A stretch of DNA of 40,633 nt, taken from Muribaculaceae bacterium (GTDB lineage Bacteria > Bacteroidota > Bacteroidia > Bacteroidales > Muribaculaceae). The translations under genes and the position numbers were made by a program. The notes beneath the pieces are model-generated. The model did no database searches. It was not told the DNA's origin and worked only from the letters and a program-made list of their open reading frames with translations. Shown here one piece after another: positions 15,028-32,240 of this stretch. Every line of letters starts with the position of its first letter. Position 1 is the stretch's first letter. The DNA lies in the NCBI GenBank assembly GCA_017940245.1, contig JAGAYZ010000042.1, positions 1 through 40,633 on the forward strand, given 5' to 3'.

Positions 15028-16472
15028 TGCTCGTTTTTGATGAGTGCGCACAAGCCCAGCATGGTGAGTGCGGCATTAAGCAGCAGTAATTCAAATCCCA
15101 GTGTATAGGCATACTGGTTCTCAAGCCATCGCTGGATAAAGAAACTGATGACCGGGGCCGCCACACACACTACGGGCACGAGTCGGTCGCGCACAGGCTT
15201 GCGGCACATCATGCCGAAGGCAAACAGACCCAGGATGGGGCCATAGGTGTAGCTGGCCAGTGTGTAGACGGCGCTGATGGCATCGCTGTTGCTGATGGCG
15301 TAGAAGATGAGGATAACGATGCCCATGCCTGCGGCCATGGCCACATGCACCATCTTGCGGGTGCGGCCCAGTGTCGTATCGTTCTGTCGCTTGTCGGCAT
15401 TGAGAATGTCGACGGTGAACGATGTGGTGAGCGAGGTCAGCGCCGAGCCGGCGGCCGAGTAGGCGGCGGAAATCAGTCCCAGAATAAACAGCACGCCCAC
15501 AATCACGGGCATTCCGGCCGAGAAGGCTACGGTGCCAAATAGCTCATCGCTCTTTTCGGGCATAGCCAAGCCATTGGCCTTGACGTGCAGGGTGAGCAAT
15601 GTGCCCAAAATCAGGAACAAGGCGATGACGAAGAACTGTGTGATGCCGCTCACGATGAGGCCCTTTTTCGACTCACGGGCGTTTTTGCTGGCCAGTGTGC
15701 GCTGCATGAGGTCCTGGTCAAGGCCGGTGGTGGCAATCACCATGAAAATGCCGGCAATGAACTGTTTCCAGAAATAGGTGCCCTCCTTGGGATTGTCGAA
15801 GAAGAACATGCGCGAAGTTTCGTCGCCGGCAATGGCCTGGCACATACCGGCTAGGTCGTAGCCCAGCCCGCGTGCGATGAAGAAGATGCACAGCACCACC
15901 GACGTGATCAGGCAGAACGACTTGAGCGTGTCGGTCCATATCACGGTCTTCACACCACCTTGCAACGTGTAGAGGAAGATCAGGGCAATGGTGGCAATCA
16001 CATTCACGATGAAGGGAATGCCCAGCGGGGTGAACACGAGCAGTTGCAGCGTGACACACACCACGTAGAAACGCACGGCGGCTCCCAGCATCTTGCTGAT
16101 GAAGAAGAACCATGCTCCGGTCTTGTGGGTGCCGGCACCAAACCGCTGCTCCAAGTAGCCATAGATGGATACTAGGTTGCGCTTGTAGAACAGCGGAATG
16201 AGCACGTAGGCAATGGCGAAGTAGCCAATGACGAATCCCAGCGTCATCTGCAGGTAGCTATAACTCTTGGCCACGACCATGCCGGGAACCGACACGAAGG
16301 TCACGCCCGAAATGGGGGCCCCTATCATGGCAATGGCCACAATGAACCAGGGTGCCTCGCGGCCGCCGGTGAGGGCGGCATTGTCGTCGGTGCGGCGTGA
16401 AACGGCCCACGAAATGAGAAACAGAATCAAGAAATAGCCAACTATTGTGGCAAGTACTATCCAGGGTGTCAT
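15024..16472 (-). CDS. Sodium:solute symporter (SSS family)
   Basis: A 482-residue inner-membrane transporter with about 13 hydrophobic helices. The SSS family is visible in the start (WIVLATIVGYFLILFLISW), in GGREAPWFIVAIAMIGAPISGVTFVSVPG, in the YLEQRFG loop and in the AAYSAAGSALTSLTTSFTVDIL segment, where the Na2-site serines and threonines usually lie. It couples Na+ entry to uptake of a sugar, amino acid or sialic-acid-like solute. Upstream by 41 bp is the NamZ-like gene, and downstream (ATGA overlap) is the WYL regulator. From this setting N-acetylmuramic acid or a related cell-wall sugar is the likely cargo; this is inferred from context. Confidence 0.9.
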   Translation of the reverse strand: MTPWIVLATIVGYFLILFLISWAVSRRTDDNAALTGGREAPWFIVAIAMIGAPISGVTFVSVPGMVVAKSYSYLQMTLGFVIGYFAIAYVLIPLFYKRNLVSIYGYLEQRFGAGTHKTGAWFFFISKMLGAAVRFYVVCVTLQLLVFTPLGIPFIVNVIATIALIFLYTLQGGVKTVIWTDTLKSFCLITSVVLCIFFIARGLGYDLAGMCQAIAGDETSRMFFFDNPKEGTYFWKQFIAGIFMVIATTGLDQDLMQRTLASKNARESKKGLIVSGITQFFVIALFLILGTLLTLHVKANGLAMPEKSDELFGTVAFSAGMPVIVGVLFILGLISAAYSAAGSALTSLTTSFTVDILNADKRQNDTTLGRTRKMVHVAMAAGMGIVILIFYAISNSDAISAVYTLASYTYGPILGLFAFGMMCRKPVRDRLVPVVCVAAPVISFFIQRWLENQYAYTLGFELLLLNAALTMLGLCALIKNEQ

Positions 16473-16513
16473 GAGTGTATGTTTTTTAGCTGCAAGTTAC
16501 GAGCTATGAGTTT

Positions 16514-17731
16514 TTAGTTGCTAGATTGATAGATGAGGTAGGGCTGGCGCTGCTGCTTGAAGGCGGCCACATCGGCAGCCCACGAGGCTTTGATTTGTGC
16601 GGCACTTTTACCGTCCATAATCATCTGCTTGACATCGCGTCGGCCCATGAGCAGGTCGAAGAAGCGCGTAAAGAATTTCTCGCCCATGTTCAGGTTGTGG
16701 TAGGCGTCGATGACATATTCCAGGTTGATGCCTTGAGCGATGGCGGCTTCGGGATCCATCTGGTGCAGATCCACGCCATGACACAACTGGTTCAGGCAAG
16801 GCGGATTCTTGGCACCAAAGCGGCTGCGCGGTGTGAACGAAAAGTCATATCCTTTCATCTGTGGGTGACCATAGACCTGGAAAGGCCAGTCGGTACCGCG
16901 GCCCAGGCTCACCGGTGTGCCCTCAAAGAAGCATGTAGAGGGATAGAGATAAATGGAGAGCATGTTGGGCAGATTGGGCGACGGAGCCACCGGCAGAGTG
17001 TAGCGGGTCTGGCGCGTGTAGTGGTCGCAGGGAATCACGGTCAGTTGGCAGCTCTTGCCGCCGGTGAGCCAGTGCTCGCCGTTGGCCATCAGCGCCAGCT
17101 CGCCCATGGTCATGCCATACACCGTGGGGATGGGCAGGCGACCCACGCCGCTCTTGAGGCTCATGTCCAGGATGGGGCCGTCCACGGTCATGATATTGGG
17201 ATTGGGGCGGTCGAAAATCACCACCTCTTTTCCGTGCAGCACTGCGGCATCCATGAGATTGATCATGGTCACATAATAGGTGTAGAAGCGCAGTCCTACG
17301 TCTTGCAGGTCGATGACAATCACGTCGAAGAGGTCCATCGTCTCCTTGGCGGGCATGGGCGACTTGCCGTCGTAGAGCGAGGCAATGGGAATACCGGTCT
17401 TTTCGTCCACGCTGCTGGCCACGTGCTCTCCGGCGTCGGCTGTGCCGCGGAACCCATGCTCGGGTGAGAAAATGGTGGTCACGTTCAATCCGTGCTCCAG
17501 CATGATGTCGAGCACGTGCTTGTCGCCCACGATGCCCGTCTGGTTGCTGAGCAAGGCCAGGCGTTTTCCCCGCAGGCGCGGCACATACATCTGTGTGCGT
17601 GCCGCCCCCACAATCACAGCTGTGGCTGTGTCGCTGCCGGTCACCGGCCGCGGCGATTCTTTGGCGGTGCTGGAACTGTGGCAGGCCATCACGCTCATCA
17701 CCAGTGTCAATAATATGATTATCTGTCTCAT
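16514..17731 (-). CDS. namZ: NamZ-like exo-beta-N-acetylmuramidase lipoprotein (DUF1343/YbbC)
   Basis: A 405-residue protein of the DUF1343 family (PF07075, GH171), whose studied members cut terminal N-acetylmuramic acid from peptidoglycan fragments. The N-terminus is a lipoprotein signal with the lipid cysteine at C17 (SVMAC). Family motifs are present: LALLSNQTGI (58-67), the conserved SPEHGFRG (89-96, with E91 and H92), DVIVIDLQDVGLRFYTY, IFDRPNPN and SLGRGTDWPFQVYG. Length is normal. It probably acts at the periplasmic or outer-membrane face. It is the first gene of a three-gene operon with the symporter (41 bp on) and the WYL regulator, which suggests release, uptake and sensing of a cell-wall sugar. 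No MurQ- or MurK-like gene is in the window. Confidence 0.88.
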   Translation of the reverse strand: MRQIIILLTLVMSVMACHSSSTAKESPRPVTGSDTATAVIVGAARTQMYVPRLRGKRLALLSNQTGIVGDKHVLDIMLEHGLNVTTIFSPEHGFRGTADAGEHVASSVDEKTGIPIASLYDGKSPMPAKETMDLFDVIVIDLQDVGLRFYTYYVTMINLMDAAVLHGKEVVIFDRPNPNIMTVDGPILDMSLKSGVGRLPIPTVYGMTMGELALMANGEHWLTGGKSCQLTVIPCDHYTRQTRYTLPVAPSPNLPNMLSIYLYPSTCFFEGTPVSLGRGTDWPFQVYGHPQMKGYDFSFTPRSRFGAKNPPCLNQLCHGVDLHQMDPEAAIAQGINLEYVIDAYHNLNMGEKFFTRFFDLLMGRRDVKQMIMDGKSAAQIKASWAADVAAFKQQRQPYLIYQSSN

Positions 17732-18682: not shown

Positions 18683-20953
18683 TTAACGCACGGTGAAGGG
18701 GAGACGTTGCACGTGCTGGCTATCGGTGCCCACCATCACTTCAAAGTCGCCGGGTTCGAGCACATAGTCGAGCTGGGCGTTGTAGAACTTGAGCTTGTCG
18801 GGGGTGATGGTGAAGGTGACTGTGCGGCTCTCGCCGGGTTGCAACTGGATGCGGGCAAAGTCTTTGAGTTCCTGCACAGGACGGGCGATGCTCCCCACCA
18901 TGTCGCGGATGTAGAGTTGCACCACCTCTGCGCCGGCACAGCTGCCGGTGTTGGTTACCGTCACGCTGGCTGTGATACTGCCCGTGGTCGTCATGGCATT
19001 GCTGCTCAAAGTGAGCGGGCTATAGCTGAAAGTGGTATAGCTCAATCCGTAGCCAAAGGGGAACAACGGGTCGTTGGGCACGTCCAGATAATTGGTGGTG
19101 AACTTGGTGAACCACTTGGGGTTGGGCCGGCCGGTGTTCAGGTGGTTGTAATAGATGGGAATCTGGCCTTCGTTGCGCGGCATGGTGGCCGAGAGCTTTC
19201 CGCTGGGAGCCACATCGCCGAACACCACGTCACAGATGGCATCGGCGGCTTCACTGCCACCGAACCACACGTTAAGGATGGTGGAAAGGTTTTCCACTTC
19301 CCAGTCCATGACTGTGGCACGGCCCGAGAAGTTGAGCAACACTATGGGTTTGCCGGTCTTCTTGAGGGCTTCAAGCAGATCCTTCTGTGCGTCGAGGATG
19401 GTGAGCCGACTGCGCGAACTGCTCTCGCCGCTCATCTCGCTAGGCTCGCCCATGGCGGCGACAATCACGTCGCACTGCTGTGCCAGGCGAACGGCCTCGT
19501 CGCGCATTACAGTGGCATCTCGCGGGTCGCGCATCTCGCGACCGAACATGGTGGAATTTTTCTCCAGTTCCTCGTCATAGCACACGTTGCATCCTTTGGC
19601 ATACATCACCTCGGCTTTGCCTGCCGTGGCGCGCTGCATGGCCTCGAGCAGAGTGCTGTAGCGGTCGCTGGCGGCTGCCACGCTCCAGGTGCCCGGCATG
19701 TTGGCGCGGGTGTTGGCCAGTGGCCCTACGAGTGCAATCTTTCCCTCGCGCTTGAGCGGCAGCACATGGTCGTCGTTCTTGAGTAAGACAAAGGTCTCGG
19801 TGGCGATGCGCCGAGCTTCGGCCCGGTGGGCATCGGTATAGATTTCCTTCTTGGCACGTTTGGGGTCAAGGTAGCGGTAGGGGTCATCAAACAGTCCCAG
19901 TTTGTATTTAGCCTCCAGAATGCGGCGGCAAGCCTGATCGATGGCCGCCATGTTCACCTTGCCTTCGGCCAGCGACTTTTCGAGAGTTCCCAAGAAACCA
20001 TCGGCCACCATGTCCATGTCGGTTCCGGCATTCAGTGCCAAGGCCGAGACGGTCTGCAAGTCGCCCATGCCGTGATTGATCATCTCGCTGATAGCGGTGT
20101 AGTCGGTTACAACAAATCCGTCGAAGCCCCACTTGTCGCGTAGCACCTCGGTGAGCAACCAGCGGTTGCCCGTGGCGGGGATGTAGTCGATAGTGTTGAA
20201 CGAGGTCATGTAACTGCCTGCTCCGGCTTCTACACCAGCCTTGTAGGGCGGAAAATACTCGTTGAACATGCGCAGCCGGCTCATGTCGACGGTGTTATAG
20301 TCGCGCCCGGCCTCGGGGGCACCGTAGAGTGCGAAATGCTTCACACACGACATCATGGTGGTGCGGTCGGCCAGATTGTTGCCCTGATAACCCTCAATCA
20401 TGGCGCGGCAGATTTCCGAACCCAGATAAGGGTCTTCGCCGTTGCCCTCGCTCATGCGTCCCCAGCGTGGCTCACGGCAGATGTCCACCATGGGGCTGAA
20501 GGTCCAGCAGATACCGTCGGCTGTGGCTTCGACCGATGCGATGCGAGCCGAATTGCGGATAGCTTCCATGTCCCAACTCATGGACAAGGCAAATGGGATG
20601 GGAAACACCGTCTCATAGCCGTGAATCACGTCCATGCCGAAAATCAAAGGAATGCCCAAGCGGCTCTTCTTGACGGCAATTTCTTGTAGCGCGCGGATGT
20701 TGGTCACGCCTTTCATGTTGAACAGGCCACCCACTTGTCCTTTTTCAATCTTTCCCACCACGTTACCGCTCACTGAACTGCCCGTGATGATGTCGCCGGT
20801 GACCGGCAGATTGAGTTGGCCTATTTTCTCTTGCAGGGTCATGCGGGCCATGAGGTTGTCAATGAACTGGTCCATCTTGGCATCGCTCGACGCGTTGGCG
20901 ACCATTATGCAGGCCACCATCAGTAGTGCTGAAAATAATCTCTTGAATGTCAT
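18683..20953 (-). CDS. GH3 beta-glucosidase (BglX-type)
   Basis: A 756-residue exported glycoside hydrolase that removes terminal beta-linked glucose (or xylose) from oligosaccharides. A signal peptide (about 1-22) is followed by the TIM-barrel domain with MTLQEKIGQL (38-47), PRWGRMSEGNGEDPYLG (162-178) and K205/H206 in CVKHFALYG. The likely nucleophile is D284 in FDGFVVTDYTAI. The second alpha/beta domain includes GEPSEMSGESSSR, where the acid/base Glu is expected. A C-terminal FN3-like domain is present (last ~75 residues). Length matches periplasmic BglX. It is the last gene of the SusC/SusD locus, 40 bp after the GH144-like gene, and would finish digestion of oligosaccharides in the periplasm. 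Confidence 0.94.
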   Translation of the reverse strand: MTFKRLFSALLMVACIMVANASSDAKMDQFIDNLMARMTLQEKIGQLNLPVTGDIITGSSVSGNVVGKIEKGQVGGLFNMKGVTNIRALQEIAVKKSRLGIPLIFGMDVIHGYETVFPIPFALSMSWDMEAIRNSARIASVEATADGICWTFSPMVDICREPRWGRMSEGNGEDPYLGSEICRAMIEGYQGNNLADRTTMMSCVKHFALYGAPEAGRDYNTVDMSRLRMFNEYFPPYKAGVEAGAGSYMTSFNTIDYIPATGNRWLLTEVLRDKWGFDGFVVTDYTAISEMINHGMGDLQTVSALALNAGTDMDMVADGFLGTLEKSLAEGKVNMAAIDQACRRILEAKYKLGLFDDPYRYLDPKRAKKEIYTDAHRAEARRIATETFVLLKNDDHVLPLKREGKIALVGPLANTRANMPGTWSVAAASDRYSTLLEAMQRATAGKAEVMYAKGCNVCYDEELEKNSTMFGREMRDPRDATVMRDEAVRLAQQCDVIVAAMGEPSEMSGESSSRSRLTILDAQKDLLEALKKTGKPIVLLNFSGRATVMDWEVENLSTILNVWFGGSEAADAICDVVFGDVAPSGKLSATMPRNEGQIPIYYNHLNTGRPNPKWFTKFTTNYLDVPNDPLFPFGYGLSYTTFSYSPLTLSSNAMTTTGSITASVTVTNTGSCAGAEVVQLYIRDMVGSIARPVQELKDFARIQLQPGESRTVTFTITPDKLKFYNAQLDYVLEPGDFEVMVGTDSQHVQRLPFTVR

Positions 20954-20993: not shown

Positions 20994-22364
20994 TTATTTT
21001 GAGATTGTGAATCCCAGTTTCTGCAGTCCTTGTTTCACTTCGGGGCAACTCATGAATAGATTCCACAGCAGTCCTGTGCGGTAGTTCTCGATCATGGGAG
21101 CAATGGTGCACTGGTCGATGGCCAGATACCGGGGTTGTGTCCATCCCGAGGCGGGACTGAAGGCATCGTAGAAGCCATATTTACCCCAGATGCTTTCGCC
21201 ATGTTTATAGAAACCCTTGAGGGCGGCCATCGACTGTTGGGGAGTGTAGGGCATCGACGACAGGGCCGCCGTAGGAGTGATCACTCCGCGGTCGTTGCCG
21301 GGGCAGTGCGCTGCGTAGCCATCGGTGGAGTAGCTGGCTGTGAGTCCCCAACAGTCGGGGCCGTAGCCCGAGTAGTGCTTGGGATTCTCAACGCAATAGG
21401 CATAGTTGCTCATAGCATGGTTGCGCACCACGTCCCAGTAAGATGCATACCGGTCGTTGAGGCCTCGCGGATCCAGTCCTATCCAACTGTAGTGCGCCCA
21501 GAAAAGGGGGCCGCCGGTGGCTTCGGCGCCATTGTGCTTGAGGCGCAGAGGGTAGCCATAGGGTGCGGCAGTGCTGGTGATGGCACCGCTGCGTGCCCAG
21601 CCCTTGTGATAGCACGACTCGGGCACGGAATGTGTGGGCGATGCTGCCGCTAGCACATACACAATCATGCACTCGTTGTAGCCCTCAAGCGGAAAATTCA
21701 TCTCCCAGCCATAGGTGGGCGACCAGTGCCAGTAGAGCACGTCTTGCCCGCCCCGGGTGTAGCAGTCAAATTCCATGGCTTGCCACAGGCCGTTGATGCG
21801 CTGCACCAGGGCTTTCTCGGCTTCGGTGTCGCGGTTGAGGTACTGACGGGCGCAAAGCAGTCCTTGCATGAGGAAACAACTCTCTACCAGGTCGCCACCA
21901 TTGTCTTTCTGCCCGAAGGGTTTCACCTTTCCGCTGGGGCCGTGCAGCCAGTGAGGCCACACGCCGTGAAAGCGGTCGGCCCGCTCCAGAAACGCTACAA
22001 TCTTGGCAAGTCGTTGCACGCCTTGCTCGCGTGTGATGAAACCGCGCTCCATGGCCACGATGAGGCCTGCAATGCCGAAGCCGCTGCCGCCGGTGGTGAC
22101 CACGTCCTGGTCGTGCTCGGGATACTGGCCGTCGAGGTGGATGCGCTCGCAAGCCAAGCCCGAGGTGGGTTCGGCTCCGTCCCACATGTAGTTGAAATGG
22201 ATGCGCTGAATGTAGTCGAGCATTTCATCATCGCTGGCAAAAGTGGCGGGCCGTGTCTCGTGTGTAGTGGTGTCGGGCTCGTCAACGATGGCTTTTGTGC
22301 TGCTCTTGCAAGCGCACATTACCAAAAGCACGCTCATTGCTGCGGTATAAATCAAGTGTCTCAT
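20994..22364 (-). CDS. GH144-like glucanase lipoprotein (PF10091, glucoamylase-like domain)
   Basis: A 456-residue protein whose whole mature part fits the PF10091 (alpha/alpha)6 domain: HFNYMWDGAEPTSGLACERI, GGSGFGIAGLIVAMERGFITRE, DNGGDLVESCFLMQGLLCARQYL, LYWHWSPTYGWEMNFPLEGYNEC, GGPLFWAHYSWIGLDPRGLNDR and MIENYRTGLLWNLF. Studied GH144 members cut beta-1,2-glucan, some of them endo-acting. A lipoprotein-like signal (MRHLIYTAAMSVLLVMCAC) suggests membrane anchoring. The start at 22364 is chosen because it begins this signal 13 nt after the previous stop. The ATG at 22391 would add MLNANRFYL and overlap the upstream gene. Next to a GH3 gene, it points to a beta-glucan substrate. The family call is strong; the linkage is less sure. 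Confidence 0.85.
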   Translation of the reverse strand: MRHLIYTAAMSVLLVMCACKSSTKAIVDEPDTTTHETRPATFASDDEMLDYIQRIHFNYMWDGAEPTSGLACERIHLDGQYPEHDQDVVTTGGSGFGIAGLIVAMERGFITREQGVQRLAKIVAFLERADRFHGVWPHWLHGPSGKVKPFGQKDNGGDLVESCFLMQGLLCARQYLNRDTEAEKALVQRINGLWQAMEFDCYTRGGQDVLYWHWSPTYGWEMNFPLEGYNECMIVYVLAAASPTHSVPESCYHKGWARSGAITSTAAPYGYPLRLKHNGAEATGGPLFWAHYSWIGLDPRGLNDRYASYWDVVRNHAMSNYAYCVENPKHYSGYGPDCWGLTASYSTDGYAAHCPGNDRGVITPTAALSSMPYTPQQSMAALKGFYKHGESIWGKYGFYDAFSPASGWTQPRYLAIDQCTIAPMIENYRTGLLWNLFMSCPEVKQGLQKLGFTISK

Positions 22365-22377
22365 AAGATAAAAACGA

Positions 22378-24480
22378 TTAGCGTTTAACAAGTGAGGAAA
22401 TCGGGCTGCGTCCGGTCTCGGCCAGGGCCTCGATGGCGAAGAAGTAGGTGGTGCCTACGTCCAGGCCGCGCAGGTCGTATTGCGTTGCACCGTTCACGGT
22501 GATGCAGTGATATAGCTTTTCGGGCTCAGTGCCGAAGTAGATGTTGTAGCCATAAGCCCCTTGCGTGGCCGTCCAGGAAATCAAGGCATTGCGAGGATCG
22601 GCTTTATCGCGGCTGACTATCAATTTCTTTACCCTTTCGGGCTTCTCGCCAGAGGCGTGGCCAAACACTCGCAACTCACTCAGGCAGAAGTTCCCTTCCG
22701 AGGGCATGTGCACGTTTTCCACGCGCAGGAAACGGGTGTGCAGCGGCTCTCGCAACTCGATGTAGTCGTGTGGTGTGTCTCGGTCGTTGTCGGTGCGGTC
22801 CACCGCCAGTGTCCATTGGCGACCGTCGTCGCTGGCCATGATGCGATATTGGTAATAGAGGTCGTTGGCACGGTTGTGCTGGATGGTGTGGTGGTCGTAG
22901 AAATTGAGTTGAATGGCTTTTACCTCGCGTTCGCCACCCAGATCTATCTGTGCCCATTCGTCCGTGTTGCCAGTGGCGGCACTCCAGTAGGTGCGCATGT
23001 TCTCGTCGGTGAGGCTGGTGGCCGTCAATGTGCTGTCGGTGCTCGACACGGTGCAGTGCTTGCCATAGGAGAGCAGCATCCATCCGGTAAAGCGGTCGGC
23101 AGGCCGGCTGATGTCGTGGTCGGCATTCCAGCAAGGATAGTCGCCAAAGGCTGTGCAGGCGTGCATCACGCCGTCGGTGTCGAAGGCGGTGGGGTAGAGT
23201 CCTATGCGGCGCTCAAACTTGTACTTGAGCGAGAGCATGCAGGTGCCCACGTGCCAGTAGTTGCCTTTCAAGTCGGCAAAAGTGCCGCCATGGCCCACAC
23301 CCTGCACGAAGCCACCCGGTTTGTAACTCATGGGATTGTGCCGCTGATAGGTGAAAGGTCCCAGGGGGTGGTCGCCGACGTAAACACCATCGGCATACAC
23401 TTTGAATTCGGTACCCGGAGCACCATATTGCAGGTAGTATTTTCCGCCATGCTTGGTCATGAATGCGCCTTCGGTAAACGGTTTCAGGGTGACTTCGTCG
23501 TCGTTGTTCATGCCGAAGCGTTCCCAGCCGTGTTGTCGCGGCTGCAGCAGGATCAGGTCGTGAATCTTGCTGATAGGGGTGAAGTCGTCGCGGCTTATCT
23601 GGACTCCCTTGATGGGATATTCGTTGCTGGAGCCGTAATACTCATAAAGGCGGCCGTCGTCGTCGAGAAACACGTGTGGGTCCCATGTGGGGAGCGTGTT
23701 GCGTTCCACGGCGCGCCGCCAGCGGCCAGTCTTGGGGCTTGTGGTGTACCAGATGGGCAGTCCGCGGTAGGTGGAGCCGGTATAAAACAAGGTGTCGCCC
23801 ACTACCCATGCCGTCGGTGCGCACTCATCATCGTCGGCGGGATGGCGCTGAAACGATGCCGCGGCAAAATCCCAGTCGCTCAGGTTGGCCGAATAGTGAA
23901 AGCCGCCCTGATTGGTCGAGAACAAGTAATATTCATTTTTATAGGTGAGTGCCATGGGGTCGGCCGAGGAACGGAATGAACCACCTGTGCGGGTGTTATT
24001 GTTCCAGGGCTCGTAGTTATAGCTGATGTTGAGCGGGTTGCAATAGGTGGAGGTGGCGGTGTGGCGCGGATCGTACCAGCGAGTGACCTGCGCGGCACGT
24101 CGCGGCGCGGCCATGGCTGCATGGTGCTTGGGGTGCATGACGATGTTTACCTGGTGAGCATCGGCTGTGCGTGTCACCACGGTCATTTCTTTGCCGGGGT
24201 AATGCGCGCAGAGGTTCACGTCGGAATCGGTGCCGATCAGCGAGAAACGTCCTTGCGCGTCGGTGTTGCAGTGTGCCGGGCTATAGAGCCACATCACAGT
24301 GGCCCCTTCCAGTGGCCGTCCGTTCTGGTCGGTGACAGTGCCGGTCACATTATACTGGGTGACGACGGGGATATAGTAGTCGCTCACTTGCCCTTTGACC
24401 ACCTTCACCGAGTCTGTGCTGGCGTAGGCACACAGGTGTAGCATCAATGCCGTGGCAATGAAAAAGTGTTTCATCGTCAT
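22378..24480 (-). CDS. GH43-like glycoside hydrolase with N-terminal carboxypeptidase-regulatory-like domain and C-terminal F5/8C and FN3 domains
   Basis: A 700-residue exported protein. After a signal peptide (1-20) comes a small beta-sandwich of the CarboxypepD_reg kind (about 44-115, VTGTVTDQNGRPLEGATV). The five-bladed propeller (about 145-475) carries the three acidic residues expected of GH43: D174 in RSSADPMAL, D267 in TWDPHVFLDDDG and E337 in FTEGAFM. Residues about 500-625 form an F5/8 type C (CBM32-like) binding domain (DEWAQIDLGGEREVKAIQ ... FLRVENVHMPSEG), and an FN3-like domain ends the chain. GH43 enzymes mostly cleave arabinofuranosides, xylosides or galactosides, so this gene may trim side groups. 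It follows susD by 96 bp, with a hairpin in the gap. The exact substrate cannot be read from the sequence. Confidence 0.85.
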   Translation of the reverse strand: MTMKHFFIATALMLHLCAYASTDSVKVVKGQVSDYYIPVVTQYNVTGTVTDQNGRPLEGATVMWLYSPAHCNTDAQGRFSLIGTDSDVNLCAHYPGKEMTVVTRTADAHQVNIVMHPKHHAAMAAPRRAAQVTRWYDPRHTATSTYCNPLNISYNYEPWNNNTRTGGSFRSSADPMALTYKNEYYLFSTNQGGFHYSANLSDWDFAAASFQRHPADDDECAPTAWVVGDTLFYTGSTYRGLPIWYTTSPKTGRWRRAVERNTLPTWDPHVFLDDDGRLYEYYGSSNEYPIKGVQISRDDFTPISKIHDLILLQPRQHGWERFGMNNDDEVTLKPFTEGAFMTKHGGKYYLQYGAPGTEFKVYADGVYVGDHPLGPFTYQRHNPMSYKPGGFVQGVGHGGTFADLKGNYWHVGTCMLSLKYKFERRIGLYPTAFDTDGVMHACTAFGDYPCWNADHDISRPADRFTGWMLLSYGKHCTVSSTDSTLTATSLTDENMRTYWSAATGNTDEWAQIDLGGEREVKAIQLNFYDHHTIQHNRANDLYYQYRIMASDDGRQWTLAVDRTDNDRDTPHDYIELREPLHTRFLRVENVHMPSEGNFCLSELRVFGHASGEKPERVKKLIVSRDKADPRNALISWTATQGAYGYNIYFGTEPEKLYHCITVNGATQYDLRGLDVGTTYFFAIEALAETGRSPISSLVKR

Positions 24481-24576: not shown

Positions 24577-26031
24577 TTATTCGTCCTTGGGCTGGTTGTT
24601 GATGGTGGGCACGGTCTGTACTTGTGTCAGAGGCACGGGATAGTACTTCACGCTTTCGCTCCATCCGGCCATTTCGGCGGCTTTTCCGGTGCGAACCAGG
24701 TCGTTGTAACGCTCGCCCCACTCACACACAAATTCCATGCGGCGCTCGTCGAGAATCTGATCGATGGTGACGTTAGACAGCGTGGGCATTTTAGCGCGTG
24801 TGCGCACCAAGTTGAAGGGCTCATCGCCGTTCTTGCCCTGGCGCACCTTTGCCTCGGCATTGATCAGCAGTGCGTCGGCATAGCGGAAGATGCGGATATT
24901 ATTGTTGGCACCATATTTTGTGCGGCCGGGAGTCAACTGGTTAGACGGAGTGTAGGCCTTTCCGTTCCAAGTGTTGGTGTTGTTGGTATTGCCTTGCACG
25001 TTGACGATGTCACCATCGCGAGTGGTTGTGCCACCTTCCAGCACCGAGGTCTCGAGACGAATGGTCTCGCCGCGACCCTTGGCCCAGTTGATGAAATTGT
25101 CGGTGATTCCCACGAAAGTCCATCCACCTTCCATATTGGCCATGGGAGGACCTTGGAACACGAACCACATGTCGGCATCGACCATCTCGCCGCTTGACTG
25201 ACCGAAATCGGTGCACTGGCACTCGAGCAGACTCTCGTTGCAGAGCTTGCCGGGAATCTTGAACAGGTTGTAGAAATCGTCGTAGAGCGCAAATTTCTTG
25301 CTGTTGATGATGTCGTTAGTGAGTGCTTCGGCTTCGGCATACTCGCCGCGGTTGAGTCGAATCTTGGCGGCAAGCAGTTCGGCAGTATAGGCCGTAGCGG
25401 CACCGATGTGTGTAGCCTCGTTGGGGCGCACCTTGAGGCAGTTGTCGATGGCATACTGCAGGTCTTCGAGCATGTAGCGCTCCACGGCGTTGCGTGTGGA
25501 ACGGGTGAGGTCGCTCTGCTCGTTGGAGCGCAGGATGGTTACATCGCCAAAAGCTTGCGTGAGCCTGTAGTAGGCATAGGCACGCAGGATGCGCACCTCG
25601 CCGCAATAGGCGCGATAGGTGGCACGATCGGCGTCGCTGGTGATGTTGGCGGCATAGTTGTCGAGCGAGGTGAGCGCTCCGTTGGCCACCTTAATCATTC
25701 CATAATACTGGTTCCACATCTCGTTCAGTCCCCAGAACGAGGCATCGTACTTGAAGTTGCCGAAATCCACGAGCAAGCCCTGGTCGTCGACACGTCCACT
25801 CCACACGTCACCGTCGCGGATGATGCTCAGGGGCCAAATCACCCAGTGCATGCCGCCGGTGCGCAGTTTAGCATAAACACCCGAAACGGGCATATACATT
25901 TCACTGATCTTGGTATAGTCCACATCTTCCTCGGGAATGGTGTTCTCGGGCAGGATGTCCAGCCAGTCGTTGCAGGACGATGCTCCCAGCATGAGGAGGC
26001 CTGCAATCATGATATGTTTTAGAAATTTCAT
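24577..26031 (-). CDS. susD: SusD/RagB-family outer-membrane glycan-binding lipoprotein
   Basis: A 484-residue lipoprotein with lipid cysteine C20 (LMLGASSC-NDWLD). It is the surface lid that captures oligosaccharides and hands them to the SusC channel. The SusD fold is seen in the N-terminal TPR-like helices (NEMWNQYYGMIKVANGALTSL, YCGEVRILRAYAYYRLTQAFGDV) and in the conserved end (RTRAKMPTLSNVTIDQILDERRMEFVCEWGERYNDLVRTGK). Slightly shorter than the usual 500-600 residues. It lies 46 bp after susC. No separate SusE/F-like surface glycan-binding protein follows. Confidence 0.96.
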   Translation of the reverse strand: MKFLKHIMIAGLLMLGASSCNDWLDILPENTIPEEDVDYTKISEMYMPVSGVYAKLRTGGMHWVIWPLSIIRDGDVWSGRVDDQGLLVDFGNFKYDASFWGLNEMWNQYYGMIKVANGALTSLDNYAANITSDADRATYRAYCGEVRILRAYAYYRLTQAFGDVTILRSNEQSDLTRSTRNAVERYMLEDLQYAIDNCLKVRPNEATHIGAATAYTAELLAAKIRLNRGEYAEAEALTNDIINSKKFALYDDFYNLFKIPGKLCNESLLECQCTDFGQSSGEMVDADMWFVFQGPPMANMEGGWTFVGITDNFINWAKGRGETIRLETSVLEGGTTTRDGDIVNVQGNTNNTNTWNGKAYTPSNQLTPGRTKYGANNNIRIFRYADALLINAEAKVRQGKNGDEPFNLVRTRAKMPTLSNVTIDQILDERRMEFVCEWGERYNDLVRTGKAAEMAGWSESVKYYPVPLTQVQTVPTINNQPKDE

Positions 26032-26077: not shown

Positions 26078-29000
26078 TTAGAAGTCAATGGTCACGCCGA
26101 AAGTGTAGGTGGCAGTGAGGGGATAGACCTCGGTGTCCCATCCCTCGGCATCGCTCAACTCGGGGGTGAAAGCGTTGGCACTGAACAGGGTGAGCGGACG
26201 GTCGGCCGTTGCGCTCAGTCGCACTGCGGGCAGTGTGTAGTTGCCCATCTTGATGTTGCGGAAGGTGTAGCCCAGCGTCACGTTCTGGATGCGGAAGAAG
26301 TTGGCGCTCTCCACAAAGAAGTCGTTCACGCGCTGATCGCTCACGTTCCAAGTGCGAATCCATCCTTCGGCCGAGGGGTAAGTGTTGCTGGTGCCTACAC
26401 CGGTCCAGCGGTTGGTCACCTGGTCGCGGTCGAAGTTGTAGTTGGATGCGGCATAGCGCAGGGCGCGCTTGCGGTTATACATCTTGCCACCGGCGTTGCC
26501 GTAGGTGGTGAGCATGAAGTCGAGGTTCTTCCACTGGAAGCCCAGGTTGAAGCTGTAGATGAAGTTGGGCAGATAAGAACCCAGAGTGGTGCGGTCGTTG
26601 CCATCCACGATTTTGTCGCCGTTCAGGTCTTTATACTTGAAGTCGCCGGGCTTGAGGCCATTGGCCACTGCAGTGGGATCGGCAGCAATTTCTTCGGCGG
26701 TCTGATAGATGCCTTCTACCTTGTAACCATAGAACGAGTTCATCTTCTCGCCCACAAACTGATAGGTCTTGCCTCCGGCAATATAGGGGTTACCCGCGAG
26801 ACTCTTGACCTCGTTGTGGATATAAGAGAGGTTGGCACCGATGTTATACTTGAAGTTGTCGCCGATGCGGTCGGCCCAGTTGATGCTCACGTCAACACCG
26901 GTGTTGAGAATCTTACCTATGTTCTGCAAGAGTGTGCCGTTCTCGAAGGGCAGGCGCGGAGCGATGACCGCTTTGCGGGTCATGCGGTAGAACCAGTCCA
27001 CGTCCACGCTCAGACGATTGTGCAGTGTGGCCAACTCAAAGCCCACGTTGGTTTCGTCTACAACTTCCCACTTGAGGTTGGTGAAATAGCTGTTGTTCTG
27101 GAAGCCTGCGATGAGCGAGTTGCCAAACACGGCCGACGAACCATTGCCGGTGGTCACCGAGCGGAAACCGTCGCTGGCGGGCACGGCGTTGTTGCCCAGG
27201 CGACCCCAGCTGGCGCGCAACTTGAGGTAGTCGATGGCGTTCTGGTCGAGCATGAAGTTTTCTTTGCTCATTACCCAAGCGGCACCAATTGAGGGATAAT
27301 AGCCCCAAGTCTCTTGATACTTGCTGGTGCCATCGGCGCGGAAGGTGAACATGAGCAGGTACTTGCCCAGGTAATCATAATTGATGCGACCGAAGTAGCT
27401 GTTGCTGCGGTAGCGGGTTCCACCATCGCTGGCGCGACGGCTGTCGCTCTCCTGCGAGGAACTGATATACTGGTAGGCTTCATCGCCGTCGACGATGCCG
27501 TAACCGATGCCGTAGAGATAGTGGTAACGGTCTTCACGCAGCGAGTGACCCAGCATCACGCCCAGGTTGTGGTTGCCGAAGCTGTCCTTGTAGGTGAGCA
27601 CGTTGTCCCAAATCCAGTTCTTGTAGGTGGCCTCGCTCTTGCTCACCGACGACTTGTCGTTGTGCTGCGTAGTGCTCACGTAATACTCGGGAGTATAGGT
27701 GCGGTTGCTCACCTGTGAGAAGTCGTAGGCATAGCTGGTTCTAAAGAACAACTTGCTGGGGATGAAATTGATTTGAGCATAGAAGTTGGTGAGGTATTTG
27801 TTCACGTCGTTCTTGCTGTTGTGGTAGTTGGCCGTGGCCACGGGGTTGTAGAAGTTGTTGGTGAATCCCACGCTCTCGGGCGAAGCGTAGTGGTTGGGAT
27901 AGTTGCTATTTTTCTCGTCGAAGACGGGATAAATGCCGGGTGCGTTGAACGCCTGCTGCCATGCGGCATTGTTGGGCGTGCGTTGAGTCCCCTTGGAGAA
28001 GATGCCGTTGAATCCTACCTTGAGCCAGTTGGTGGCTTCGTAATCTACAGCGGCGCGGAAGTTGAGACGCTTGTAGTAGTTGCTCACATCCATGACACCA
28101 TCCTGGTGCAGGTAGTTGATACCCAGTGAGTAGGTGGCTTTCTCACCACCGCCGGTGATGCTCAGGCTGTGGTCGGTGATCAGAGCCGTGCGCAGCAGCT
28201 CTTTGTACCAGTCGGTGTTGCTGCCATAGGTCCACTTGTGGAAGTCGCTGTCGGCATAGCTGCCGCCGTAGCGGTCGATAGAGGCCTTCATGAGCGATAC
28301 ATAGGCGTCGTAGTTGGCTTCGAGCAGCATCGTGGCGTATTCGCTCGACGATGCCATGGGCAACACGTTGGTGGCCTTCTGGAAGCCCACGTAACCGTTG
28401 TAAGTGATCTTGGCGGCCTGGTTCTTGTTGCCGTGCTTGGTGGTGATGAGCACCACGCCGTTGGCGGCACGCACACCATAGATGGCGGCTGCCGAAGCGT
28501 CTTTAAGCACCGACATGTCGGCGATGTCGTTGGCATTGAGGAAGTCGATGTTGTCATAGAACATGCCATCAACCACATAGAGTGGGCTACCGCCGGTGAA
28601 TGAACCATTACCGCGGATAGTCACCTTGGGACCCTCGCCCGGCGTACCGCTGTTGACCACGTTCACACCCGATACCTTGCCCTGCATGGCGGCCATGGGC
28701 GATGCGGCTGGAGTGGCGAGTAGTTGTTCGCCCTTGACTACGGAGATGGGAGCGGTCAGGTCCTTGGCCTGGGCCGAACCATAACCAATCACTACCACTT
28801 CGTCGAGATTACGCACATCATCTTCCATCTGCACGTTCATCACGTCGGTTGCTTTCATTTCTACTGCTTTCATGCCCATGAAGGTAAACTTCAGTGTGGC
28901 ACCATCGGGAACGTTGGCAATCTCGAAATTGCCATCGAAGTCAGTCACAGCCATTACCGTGCCATTTACCAGCACGTTGGCTCCAATCACGGGTTCGTTG

Positions 29001-29095
29001 ACCTGGTCAACAACCGTACCTTTTACTGCGCGCGCATGTAGTCCCATGACCGAGCATGCCACAACAAGTAAAAACGTCAGGATTCTTTTTTCCAT
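26078..29095 (-). CDS. susC: SusC/RagA-family TonB-dependent outer-membrane transporter
   Basis: A 1005-residue 22-strand beta-barrel that imports oligosaccharides using TonB energy. A signal peptide (about 1-23) is followed by a CarboxypepD_reg-like domain (24-95, VKGTVVDQVNEPVIGANVLV), the TonB box/start-of-plug region (LDEVVVIGYGSAQAKDLTAPIS) and the plug with the SusC signature (NDIADMSVLKDASAAAIYGV, then NGVVLITTK). The barrel ends in an aromatic residue (TYTFGVTIDF). There is no STN domain, so it is not expected to signal through an anti-sigma factor. That fits with control by the divergent one-component regulator. First gene of the locus, with a good promoter and three upstream motif copies. 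Confidence 0.97.
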   Translation of the reverse strand: MEKRILTFLLVVACSVMGLHARAVKGTVVDQVNEPVIGANVLVNGTVMAVTDFDGNFEIANVPDGATLKFTFMGMKAVEMKATDVMNVQMEDDVRNLDEVVVIGYGSAQAKDLTAPISVVKGEQLLATPAASPMAAMQGKVSGVNVVNSGTPGEGPKVTIRGNGSFTGGSPLYVVDGMFYDNIDFLNANDIADMSVLKDASAAAIYGVRAANGVVLITTKHGNKNQAAKITYNGYVGFQKATNVLPMASSSEYATMLLEANYDAYVSLMKASIDRYGGSYADSDFHKWTYGSNTDWYKELLRTALITDHSLSITGGGEKATYSLGINYLHQDGVMDVSNYYKRLNFRAAVDYEATNWLKVGFNGIFSKGTQRTPNNAAWQQAFNAPGIYPVFDEKNSNYPNHYASPESVGFTNNFYNPVATANYHNSKNDVNKYLTNFYAQINFIPSKLFFRTSYAYDFSQVSNRTYTPEYYVSTTQHNDKSSVSKSEATYKNWIWDNVLTYKDSFGNHNLGVMLGHSLREDRYHYLYGIGYGIVDGDEAYQYISSSQESDSRRASDGGTRYRSNSYFGRINYDYLGKYLLMFTFRADGTSKYQETWGYYPSIGAAWVMSKENFMLDQNAIDYLKLRASWGRLGNNAVPASDGFRSVTTGNGSSAVFGNSLIAGFQNNSYFTNLKWEVVDETNVGFELATLHNRLSVDVDWFYRMTRKAVIAPRLPFENGTLLQNIGKILNTGVDVSINWADRIGDNFKYNIGANLSYIHNEVKSLAGNPYIAGGKTYQFVGEKMNSFYGYKVEGIYQTAEEIAADPTAVANGLKPGDFKYKDLNGDKIVDGNDRTTLGSYLPNFIYSFNLGFQWKNLDFMLTTYGNAGGKMYNRKRALRYAASNYNFDRDQVTNRWTGVGTSNTYPSAEGWIRTWNVSDQRVNDFFVESANFFRIQNVTLGYTFRNIKMGNYTLPAVRLSATADRPLTLFSANAFTPELSDAEGWDTEVYPLTATYTFGVTIDF

Positions 29096-29147
29096 TGTTT
29101 CGTTTTAAAGGTTGGTAAAAACTTGAATTTATTGCGGTTTTTGCTCG

Positions 29148-29179
29148 CAAAATTAGCGCAGGAGGCTCAGCATGGCAAA
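29148..29179 (-). promoter_or_regulatory. susC promoter
   Basis: On the minus strand TTTG (29176-29179), 20 nt, then TAATTTTG (29148-29155), about 52 bp before the susC start at 29095. The first CTAC-type motif copy (29187-29201) begins 7 bp upstream of the -33 element, a typical activator position. Confidence 0.75.
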
Positions 29180-29186
29180 TTTTCTG

Positions 29187-29309
29187 CTACGATAACACTA
29201 CACGCCCCCATTTCATTGCTACGATATTACTACGATAATAGTAATTAAATTATTAGTTTACAATAAAATATAATGATTAAAAAATATTTCAATACTACAA
29301 TAATACTAT
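29187..29309. promoter_or_regulatory. Three copies of a 15-bp direct-repeat motif, candidate operator of the locus regulator
   Basis: CTACGATAACACTAC (29187-29201), CTACGATATTACTAC (29219-29233) and CTACAATAATACTAT (29295-29309) give the consensus CTACRATAWYACTAY. Each copy is two CTAC/CTAT half-sites 11 bp apart, one helical turn, in the same orientation. The first two copies are 32 bp apart (about three turns). They fill the spacer between susC and the divergent regulator gene, next to the susC -33 box. Binding by that regulator is inference. Confidence 0.7.
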
Positions 29310-29347
29310 CTTTTACCTGTTGGCTTGTTTTTTTCTTGTTCATAGGG

Positions 29348-29378
29348 TTGCACGTGTGATAATTGTTTAGTAATTTTG
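29348..29378 (+). promoter_or_regulatory. Promoter of the membrane-spanning regulator gene
   Basis: TTG (29348-29350), 20 nt, then TAATTTTG (29371-29378), only 18 bp before the ATG at 29397, so the leader is very short. A three-codon ORF (ATG ACG AAA TGA, 29389-29400) overlaps the start codon. Confidence 0.6.
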
Positions 29379-29396
29379 CAATTATAACATGACGAA

Positions 29397-32240
29397 ATGA
29401 TGAAACTCCGTTACCTCTTCCCACTGCTGTTGTTACTACTGAAATATGTAGTGTCCACTCCTGTTTTTGCTGCTTCTTTCATGCCGCTCATCCATAACTA
29501 TAATGTGGCCGACTATCATGGGGCATTACAAAACTGGGATTTGGCTCAAGGTGCTGGAGGTGAGATGTTTGTGGGTAACGGGAAAGGCGTCTTGTGTTTT
29601 GATGGCTATCGCTGGACGCTTACGCCTTTGCCAAGTGGTGGTGTTGTGCGTTCGCTATTGCTTGATGGTGACCGTCTGTATGTGGGTGGATATCAAGAGT
29701 TTGGTTATATGATACGGGATCAATTCGGGAAATTGCAGTATCATTCACTTTGGCCCAAAGATTATCGGCCGCACGATGATGAAATATGGAATATTGTACG
29801 CGACAAGAATGGAGTGATTTATTTTCAGTCGTTTGCTGCATGGTTTTCCTACGACGGAAGTCGTGTGACTTCTCACTTCGACCCCTCTTTTTTACCTTTG
29901 TATTTTCATGAAGTTGGAGGTGAAATTTATGTGCAAGAGCAGGAGGGAGATTATTATCGTATGGTGAAAGGCCGGCCTCGTCGGTTACTGGAACGCAAGC
30001 AGGTTGGCAATGACCACATTGTGGCAGCCGTGCCGGGTCGTGAGGGTCACATCATTTTATGTACTCAATGGCACGGGCTGTTTGATTTTGATGGAAGCCA
30101 TTGTGTGCCTATGTCCACGTCGTGCGATGAGGCTTTGCGTCTTACAAATGTTAATAGAGCCGCGTTATTGTCGACCGATTCCACTCTGGTGATAGGTACC
30201 ATATTGGGTGGCATTTACGGCATAGCTCCTGATGGGCATTTGAAGTGGCATTACCACATGGGTAACCATTTGAACAACAACTCTGTGCTGAGTCTGATGC
30301 CCGATGATGCCGGGAATGTGTGGGCCGCGCTTGATATCGGTGTAGCCATGATTGCCACCGCTTCGCCCTATTCTCTCTTGTTGCCGGGGCAAGGTCAACC
30401 CTCGCTAGGCATGGTCTATGGCTTAGCCGCATCGTGGCCCTATCTCTACATTGCCACCAACCAGGCTGCGTGGCAATATGATTTTGAGCAGAAGCACTTT
30501 CGTCACATTGCGGGCAGTGATGGCCAAAACTGGCATGTAACGCGGGTCGACGGACAGTTGCTGCTGGGTAATAACGTTGGCTTGAAACCGCTTCAAGGTA
30601 ATGTGGCCGGGGCCGTGTTGGGAGCCAGCAACAGCAGCACATGTATTAGAAAATGTGTGATGAACGGGCAGGAGATTCTCCTTGAATCCTCCTATTATTC
30701 CATGCGCGTTTTTCGCAAGCAGAATGGACAGTGGGTCTACTCGCATGAACTGCAAGGATTCCATGCGCCGGTATCAGAATTTGAGGTCGACCACCTGGGC
30801 AATATCTGGGTTGCGCACATGAGCCAGGGATTGTTCAGAGTAACCCTCTCGGCCGATCTGACCCAAGCCTCGGTGCGCCGCTATGATAAGATGGGTGAGG
30901 ATTCGATAGCCGGCTTGACGCATGTGATGAAGGTGTGTGGGCGCGTGGTCTTTTCTCGGCAGCGTCACCTTTATACCTATGACGACCGCACCGACCGTGT
31001 GGTTGCCTTTGACGATTTGGGTGAATTAAATAGTAATGTGTGTTCGGCTACGCCGGTAGACGACAATACGTTCTGGCTTGCAACCGACGACGGTTTTATG
31101 CTCATGCGTCGTGAAGGGCAGCGTTATCGCACGATTAATTCTGTGTCGGCACGATTTTTCGGGTTGGAATGTAACGACACGAAAAATAACGTATATGTCC
31201 ACGACAGCGTGGCTTATTTTAACCTCAATAACGGAGTGGGACGGCTCAATATGCGTAGGCCGTTACGTCCCGACACCGCTCATCATCGGTTGCAATTGCG
31301 CTCGGTGCTCACCAAGGGTCGCAAAGGTGCCAGCAGCAGTATGCCGGTAAAAGGCACCAAGCGGCATCGCGCGCAGTCGATGGGCAATATCATTTTTGAC
31401 CTGTCCTATCCCAATTTTTCATTTGAACCCATCACCTTTGAATACACGCTCACCGGCGGCGGTGCTCAGCTACACTCGCAGTCGGCCGAGCCACATGTGG
31501 AATATGGCGTGCTGGCGTATGGTAACTATCATTTTACCTGCCTTGCCCGCCGGCTAGATGGCTCGGTCGTGGGGCGTGTCGACTACTACTTTGAGCGTCC
31601 GCGACCGTTCTACGCATCGTGGTGGGCATGGGTGCTCTATGCCGGTCTCATGGCAGCCGGTGTCTATGCGCTGGTGCGGTACCGCACGCGCAAGACAGCC
31701 GAGCAAATGCGCCGTCAGTATGAGGACAAACGCTTGCAGCAAGACATCAAAGTGCTGGAACAGGAGAAAATCATCGCCGAGCAGCGGCATCAGTTGCTTG
31801 AGGCGCAACTTCACGACAAGACGCGCGAGGCGGCATCGCTTGCGCTGGATGCGGTGGCTCGCAACCGTGCGATTGAGGGCATTCGTGACACCTTGCGCGA
31901 GAAGCGGCGCAAAGGCTCCATCACACAGGGCGACATGGCGGCCATGTTGCGCCAACTGGGTGAGAATGCCGACAGCGACAACTTCTGGGAAGTGTATCAG
32001 AACAATTTCAACCTCATCCACAAGAATTTTTTCAAAAAGCTCAAAGCCCAGTACCCGTCGCTCACCCCCACCGATTTGCGGTTCTGCGCGTTGCTGCGCT
32101 TGAACCTTTCAACCAAGGACATAGCTCAATTCACCGGCTTGAGTGTGCGTGGCGTTGAGGGTGCCCGTTATCGCTTGCGCAAGAAACTGTCGCTGCACGA
32201 GGGCATCAATCTGGTGGATTTCCTCATCAATTACGAGTGA
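29397..32240 (+). CDS. One-component membrane regulator: periplasmic propeller, Y_Y_Y domain, membrane helix, LuxR-type HTH
   Basis: A 947-residue regulator of the adjacent locus. A signal peptide (about 1-25) is followed by a large periplasmic sensor of beta-propeller repeats (about 40-620, with repeated blades such as GEMFVGNGKGVLCFDGYRW and LGNIWVAHMSQGLFRV). A Y_Y_Y-type Ig domain (about 655-735) and one membrane helix (about 738-760, WWAWVLYAGLMAAGVYALV) follow. The cytoplasmic part is a long coiled coil (about 765-815) and a LuxR/GerE-like HTH (about 888-935, TPTDLRFCALLRLNLSTKDI, then GLSVRGVEGARYRLRKKL). There is no histidine kinase and no receiver domain, so it is not a hybrid two-component system. 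The layout suits glycan sensing in the periplasm with direct DNA binding from the membrane, as in SusR-like regulators. It is divergent from susC. Confidence 0.88.
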   Translation: MMKLRYLFPLLLLLLKYVVSTPVFAASFMPLIHNYNVADYHGALQNWDLAQGAGGEMFVGNGKGVLCFDGYRWTLTPLPSGGVVRSLLLDGDRLYVGGYQEFGYMIRDQFGKLQYHSLWPKDYRPHDDEIWNIVRDKNGVIYFQSFAAWFSYDGSRVTSHFDPSFLPLYFHEVGGEIYVQEQEGDYYRMVKGRPRRLLERKQVGNDHIVAAVPGREGHIILCTQWHGLFDFDGSHCVPMSTSCDEALRLTNVNRAALLSTDSTLVIGTILGGIYGIAPDGHLKWHYHMGNHLNNNSVLSLMPDDAGNVWAALDIGVAMIATASPYSLLLPGQGQPSLGMVYGLAASWPYLYIATNQAAWQYDFEQKHFRHIAGSDGQNWHVTRVDGQLLLGNNVGLKPLQGNVAGAVLGASNSSTCIRKCVMNGQEILLESSYYSMRVFRKQNGQWVYSHELQGFHAPVSEFEVDHLGNIWVAHMSQGLFRVTLSADLTQASVRRYDKMGEDSIAGLTHVMKVCGRVVFSRQRHLYTYDDRTDRVVAFDDLGELNSNVCSATPVDDNTFWLATDDGFMLMRREGQRYRTINSVSARFFGLECNDTKNNVYVHDSVAYFNLNNGVGRLNMRRPLRPDTAHHRLQLRSVLTKGRKGASSSMPVKGTKRHRAQSMGNIIFDLSYPNFSFEPITFEYTLTGGGAQLHSQSAEPHVEYGVLAYGNYHFTCLARRLDGSVVGRVDYYFERPRPFYASWWAWVLYAGLMAAGVYALVRYRTRKTAEQMRRQYEDKRLQQDIKVLEQEKIIAEQRHQLLEAQLHDKTREAASLALDAVARNRAIEGIRDTLREKRRKGSITQGDMAAMLRQLGENADSDNFWEVYQNNFNLIHKNFFKKLKAQYPSLTPTDLRFCALLRLNLSTKDIAQFTGLSVRGVEGARYRLRKKLSLHEGINLVDFLINYE

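Follow-up and report, generated by a model that had tools for sequence, protein, structure and literature searches.

The window analyzed here, a stretch of 40,633 nucleotides from a Muribaculaceae bacterium, carries on its reverse strand a PUL headed by susC (SusC/RagA TonB-linked receptor; positions 26078 to 29095), the predicted target of the regulation discussed below. Next come susD (24577 to 26031) and genes for a GH43 protein with F5/8C (22378 to 24480), a glycoamylase-family protein (20994 to 22391), and a GH3 protein (18683 to 20953). By sequence search, the glycoamylase-family protein is close to the endo-beta-1,2-glucanase 5gzh, and the GH3 protein is close to periplasmic beta-glucosidases. 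The likely substrate of this PUL is therefore beta-1,2-glucan. Divergent from susC, on the forward strand, lies the gene for a regulator of 947 amino acids (29397 to 32240).

An earlier note on this DNA had described three copies of a 15-bp motif in the spacer between susC and the regulator. Our scan of the window recovered three exact copies of the proposed consensus, at 29187-29201, 29219-29233, and 29295-29309, all on the forward strand. As described, each consists of two same-direction half-sites spaced 11 bp apart (the third copy ends in CTAT; the other words are CTAC), and the starts of copies 1 and 2 are separated by 32 bp, or about three helical turns. Copy 1 starts 7 bp beyond the end of a predicted susC -33 box (TTTG, or CAAA on the forward strand; 29176-29179), also in agreement with the note. 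The predicted susC -7 box, TAATTTTG, is at 29148-29155 on the reverse strand, 20 bp from the -33 box, and a predicted regulator -7 box, TAATTTTG, is at 29371-29378 on the forward strand. Outside the three copies, matches in the window carry two mismatches (at 11319, and at 29230, where an extra 15-bp match begins on the second half-site of copy 2) or three. At up to three mismatches, the scan gave 10 matches versus 4.06 expected.

The spacers of related genomes lead to a somewhat different description of the array, as six same-direction half-sites with the core NTAC (mostly CTAC) at 0, 11, 32, 43, 105, and 116 bp, and hence with steps of 11, 21, 11, 62, and 11 bp. Their positions in the window, all on the forward strand, are A1 (CTAC, 29187-29190), A2 (CTAC, 29198-29201), B1 (CTAC, 29219-29222), B2 (CTAC, 29230-29233), C1 (ATAC, 29292-29295), and C2 (ATAC, 29303-29306). 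Of the 15-bp motif, relatives conserve NTAC and the spacing, but not the RATAWYA middle. Copy 3 is present, but the register shared with relatives is that of C1 and C2, which begin 3 bp before its CTAC (29295) and CTAT (29306), so that C1 overlaps this copy. The three sites are also not equal: four half-sites are conserved, and the third pair is limited to a close clade.

Within its own genome (2.7 Mb, 80% complete), the consensus at up to one mismatch matches the three exact copies in the window and four further places with one mismatch, all four inside open reading frames of at least 280 amino acids; the reversed control gave three matches. A looser pattern for the four-half-site array occurs once in this genome (control, 0), and shuffled versions of the window spacer reached the score of the real array in 0 of 100 cases.

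The regulator itself is built from a propeller sensor, one transmembrane segment (approximately residues 742 to 760, by eye), a coil, and a C-terminal HTH (approximately residues 889 to 935). Pfam at E ≤ 0.001 detects Reg_prop only, and thus no histidine kinase, receiver, or AraC-type HTH. A profile built from 37 relatives matches three HTCS sensor structures (3v9f, 4a2l, 3ott) and, less strongly, designed propellers. The protein ends in LTPTDLRFCALLRLNLSTKDIAQFTGLSVRGVEGARYRLRKKL, and E-x-x-R-Y-R-L-R is invariant in 32 relatives. Among these 32, 20 match GerE at E ≤ 1 (best, 6.9e-8), and 29 match Sigma70_r4_2 (best, 1.9e-4). The HTH of the window protein scores 13.8 bits against Pfam GerE, for which the cut-off is 23.5, and the best PDB profile match is EsrB (E = 4e-4). 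The note's membrane-tethered LuxR-type HTH therefore holds by sequence as far as the kinase-less chain of sensor, transmembrane segment, and HTH is concerned, and the weak profile matches suggest that the HTH may be LuxR/NarL-like.

An hhalign comparison also relates this HTH to the SusR HTH (probability, 92.6; E = 4.6e-7; 95 columns). Judged by its sequence, however, the regulator is not a SusR, as it has no match to NF058541 (SusR) at E ≤ 1; the whole genome likewise has 0 matches at E ≤ 0.001. Proteins of about 461 to 606 amino acids with a similar C-terminus, found in 20 regions, were considered as SusR candidates and set aside; none of the six scanned was above the SusR cut-off. Five of the six match TPR models, and one (L095) matches GerE only; the 20 stretches contain no relative of the window susC.

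Orthologues of the regulator (34 to 100% identity) were gathered by protein searches, and the motif was not used in their choice. In the spacers between susC and these orthologues, which we call family 1, the first four half-sites are complete in 16 of 20 cases, and at least three are present in 19. The remaining spacer, L064, has two half-sites in register, with one base, by eye, inserted between A and B. When 23 family-1 regions are scored, all four NTAC words are found in 16 and at least three in 19; the rest are L064 (two of four) and L023, L024, and L028 (one of four each), the last three having regulators that are not divergent from susC. The stretch scored for L028 is not true upstream sequence, as most of it lies in the 5' portion of a gene that is broken into two frames, and the 19.9 kb around L028 contain no complete array. 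Adding five susC regions whose regulator is elsewhere or downstream gives complete arrays in 20 of 25 regions and at least three half-sites in 24, with a -7-like box at a fixed place in 23. The pattern itself led to four of the 25 (L169-L172); among the 21 unselected regions, 16 have the complete array. Arrays with three of four half-sites occur in L027, L025, L031, and L180, and L064 fits only with a one-base shift. We also observed regulator copies that are stop-broken or split in two frames, at L027 (genome G099) and at L165/L180 (G046); the arrays of both genomes have three of four half-sites.

Anchoring on the promoter gives the same picture at finer resolution. Both susC boxes were found in 11 of 15 close spacers (L064, L069, L070, and L027 are outside this alignment), and in these 11 CTAC lies at offsets from the -33 box of 7 (nine spacers), 18 (11), 39 (10), 50 (10), 112 (five), and 123 bp (four). 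At the first four offsets, NTAC is present in 44 of 44 instances. Pairwise identity is 0.96 for site columns versus 0.52 for other columns. The forward strand of the 11 spacers has 63 CTAC words, 49 of them inside the six registers, and only five GTAG words; the half-site consensus is aCTAC(g/t). Distances between CTAC words in all 15 close spacers are most often 11 bp (27 pairs), 32 (20), 73 (12), 21 (11), 43 (nine), and 62 (six), and the maximum at these distances in any of 200 shuffles was three. Rows were dropped when they had no upstream sequence because of contig edges (L032, L071, L017) or almost none (L037, L042), and L008-L014 and L016, which duplicate loci with G handles, were counted once each. 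In a wider stretch, L064 has both susC boxes, with CTAC at the 7-bp offset from the -33 box; this row does not enter the half-site table and was anchored by hand for the count of C pairs given below. L180 was likewise anchored by hand.

The earlier note had suggested asking whether the motif follows the regulator's orthologues and their susC promoters, or is instead common in unrelated spacers. In 101 genomes of the genus, the array pattern at up to one mismatch has 49 matches in 16 genomes (reversed control, 13 in 12). Eleven of these, one per genome, are at the susC-regulator spacer, and every one of the 11 genomes belongs to the 14 whose orthologue is full-length and at least 52% identical. 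The three misses are G246, with a one-base shift, and G095 and G236, with two changed first letters each. The remaining matches are tandem repeats by eye, save one each in G240 and G220, inside long open frames. A strict composite pattern (gap, 16 to 18) applied to 198 genomes of the family yielded 10 matches in seven genomes (reversed control, 13 in five), and the three that are non-tandem by eye are all at the susC-regulator spacer (G000, G017, G109). In eight genomes whose orthologue is distant, unlinked, or incomplete, a loose pattern had six matches. Because the reversed controls, which give counts without places, were comparable in the 198-genome scan and in the eight-genome scan (six versus six), we rejected array counts as a measure of enrichment and used only the places at which arrays occur; tandem repeats were set aside by eye. 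By place, then, in related genomes as in its own, the motif does track with the regulator and the susC promoters rather than being scattered among other spacers.

The eight genomes, all but G003 followed further, also help to assign the array to one of the two divergent genes. Four of the six loose matches, all complete arrays, immediately precede the best susC match of their genome (G478, G479, G027, G066); the others are the known linked spacer of G025 and a match elsewhere (G025:C14). G046 has three of four half-sites at the same place before the orthologous susC, and G035 has three of four in a linked spacer. The array-bearing susC of G027, G066, G046, and G479 heads a PUL like that of the window, with susD and the glycoamylase-family enzyme in all four, a relative of the GH43-F5/8C protein in three, and GH3 in three (the G027 contig ends inside the glycoamylase gene). 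The stretches read around susC in these four genomes contain no relative of the regulator, and in G478 the regulator is downstream of susC, susD, and the glycoamylase gene. Linkage of these four genes is seen in the culturable relative Prevotella illustrans. Since the array precedes orthologous susC genes even where the regulator is not divergent, its location argues that it belongs to the susC promoter.

Pair C has a narrower distribution. A C-type pair of NTAC words 11 bp apart, placed 104 to 107 bp from A1, occurs in 12 of 20 linked family-1 spacers, where any such pair is expected in 1.4. The carriers are 12 of 14 genus-level spacers and 0 of six other linked spacers, and none of the five susC regions whose regulator lies downstream or at another locus has the pair. 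The pair stands 40 to 96 bp from the nearest candidate regulator -7 box, depending on the spacer, and the 105 bp from A to C in the window amount to ten turns. An A-tract just before the pair (AAAAAAT, 29279-29285) is kept column for column in six or more of the eight spacers aligned and is possibly a bend.

Some relatives have a further element between pairs A and B. The excerpt available from PMC3878776 gives the Bacteroides Crp motif as wwwTATGTTnTAnAACATAwww, and matches with at most two mismatches in 14 positions are found in 11 of 25 family-1 regions, centred 24.5 to 25.5 bp from A1. These Crp/Cur-like palindromes, which overlap B1 by one or two bases, are upstream of susC at L022, L067-L070, L025, L026, L029, L030, L172, and L180. 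The window (best, five mismatches) and its nearest relatives have no such site.

Paralogous regulators of about 22 to 28% identity have spacers with related layouts, namely 11-bp direct repeats of other words or other spacing. We picked two further families by eye after viewing the spacers, so the counts for them are descriptive; from one set of 28 regions, nine were used. In family 2 (CTAC, with pairs 33 bp apart), at least three of four half-sites are present in 11 of 16 spacers, nine of which have arrays that begin 10 or 11 bp from the -33 box; the best score is at another place in L118 and L119. Two of the 18 members named (L036, L121) fell out, as no divergent start was called. The Crp motif at up to three mismatches occurs in 13 of the 16, in six of them 96.5 to 97.5 bp from A1. 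In family 3 (ACTCAC or CCTCAC), 21 five-letter word pairs at a lag of 11 bp come from six of eight loci (shuffles, 2.1; maximum, nine); L033 and L077 are counted in this family and have no 11-bp word pair, and L106 and L128 are near-copies. A separate excess, at a lag of 100 bp, comprises 14 word pairs versus 1.3 in shuffles (L033, L073-L075, L077, L106, L128, L129). L107, L110, and L115-L117 were placed in no operator class, although AACTCAC/AACTCAA repeats 11 bp apart can be seen by eye in L115 and L116, which belong to further paralogues. A regulator tree of 37 rows, with class labels on 30, requires two changes among the three operator classes, the least possible. Three genomes with a paralogous regulator have a different half-site word in its susC-side spacer (L022/L106, L067/L128, L068/L129). 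G109, G220, and G258 each have one family-1 and one CCTCAC-type regulator, and these three CCTCAC-type proteins are outside the tree.

The tracking of the array with the regulator, its fixed place at the susC promoter, and its clade-specific words support the earlier proposal that the spacer holds the operator of the divergent one-component regulator. We consider it probable (about 0.82) that the adjacent tethered regulator controls the susC operon through this array. Binding of the array by some other transcription factor, either an HTCS with an AraC-type HTH or a global factor, with the neighboring regulator incidental, is unlikely. HTCS sites are direct repeats approximately 21 bp apart (PMC3878776, in the excerpt available), which is also the distance from A2 to B1, and a different global site, the Crp-like palindrome, does lie inside the array of 11 of the 25 relatives. 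Two 11-bp pairs are nevertheless unlike the described HTCS pattern, the spacer array follows the regulator across the 101 genus genomes, and both word and geometry shift with the regulator clade. That the array or pair C serves mainly autoregulation of the regulator gene might be suspected from the position of pair C on the regulator side of the spacer, yet C is fixed relative to A1 and variable relative to the regulator -7 box. Non-divergent orthologues in G027, G066, and G046 moreover have no complete array in surrounding stretches of 16 to 20 kb, the regulator upstream regions of L023 and L024 have at best one of four half-sites, and the available flanks of L015 and L018 have no complete array, whereas orthologous susC genes do have the array in the same genomes (four of four half-sites in G027, G066, G478, and G479; three in G046). 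We regard autoregulation as quite improbable.

An operator of the SusR type, in which one dimer would read two single boxes far apart (67 or 77 bp), here B and C, seems slightly less probable again. The two HTHs are related, SusR spacers contain repeated CTAC or CTAT words, and a long in-phase spacing recurs here as the 73 bp from B1 to C1. Against this, the A-B quartet is the most conserved part, and C is missing from 11 of 11 regions outside the genus-level clade and from two of 14 within it. According to the excerpt available from PMC3878776, SusR sites are direct repeats with a spacing of 67 or 77 bp; our control on SusR spacers, which used 14 of 22 loci, gave both 67 and 77, plus a 65 that comes mainly from one locus (L149), rather than 11, 21, and 32; the 11/21/11 array of the window is therefore distinct from SusR sites. 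Chance, a functionless repeat, or an RNA element is extremely improbable. The spacer is AT-rich, but its shuffles did not reproduce the array, and the cores are kept in diverged spacers; for an RNA element, there is no Rfam match in 28900-29600, and the array is upstream of both predicted starts.

Our best reading is thus that a kinase-less regulator with an HTCS-type sensor and a LuxR-like HTH activates a probable beta-1,2-glucan PUL; we infer binding, stoichiometry, activation, and ligand from sequence. A periplasmic oligosaccharide, probably a beta-1,2-gluco-oligosaccharide, would bind the propeller sensor, and the signal would pass through the transmembrane segment and the coil to C-terminal LuxR/NarL-like HTHs, each of which would read one NTAC half-site. 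Neighboring HTHs one turn apart would form pairs at A (offsets of 7 and 18 bp from the -33 box) and at B (39 and 50 bp), on one face of the DNA and beside the -33 box, and would bring in RNA polymerase. Pair C of the close clade, at a distance of ten turns from A, may add a dimer by looping or cooperative binding. An activator in contact with RNA polymerase would fit the position of the array, on one face and 7 bp from the -33 box, and two tethered dimers would fit the two half-site pairs.

The window regulator may share with NarL/LuxR (GerE) regulators a related C-terminal HTH, by profile, but the usual sites of that family are inverted, and the window operator consists of tandem direct repeats at one-turn spacing. 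It resembles SusR-type Bacteroides regulators (NF058541) as a membrane-bound one-component PUL regulator with a related HTH and with direct-repeat sites, often with CTAC or CTAT, at long in-phase spacing; it differs in its propeller sensor and in a core operator of two 11-bp pairs 32 bp apart instead of single boxes. With HTCS proteins, whose sensor is described in PMC3243724 (in the excerpt available), it shares the type of periplasmic propeller, a PUL target, and direct repeats with one 21-bp spacing, and it lacks their kinase, receiver, and AraC HTH by Pfam. Among the matches listed in a search of the open-access literature, we found no described operator for kinase-less propeller-HTH PUL regulators of Bacteroidota; PMC12125979, by the excerpt available, concerns another regulator.

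There is perhaps an even chance that a general operator grammar applies to propeller-HTH one-component PUL regulators. In it, two one-turn direct-repeat pairs on the same face would be separated by about three turns and stand at a set distance from the susC -33 box, with a word that varies by clade and a geometry that stays nearly constant; the space between them could take up a Crp/Cur-type site, and a loop could be closed by a further pair ten turns off. A fixed geometry readable from sequence would allow regulon assignment in uncultured rumen and gut genomes and would link a regulator to its PUL even when the two are not neighbors, and it would offer a ready test of tethered-dimer assembly on DNA. 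Beside the PUL of the window, at 15024-17731, a NamZ-type exo-beta-N-acetylmuramidase gene adjoins a sodium:solute symporter gene, possibly for muropeptide salvage.
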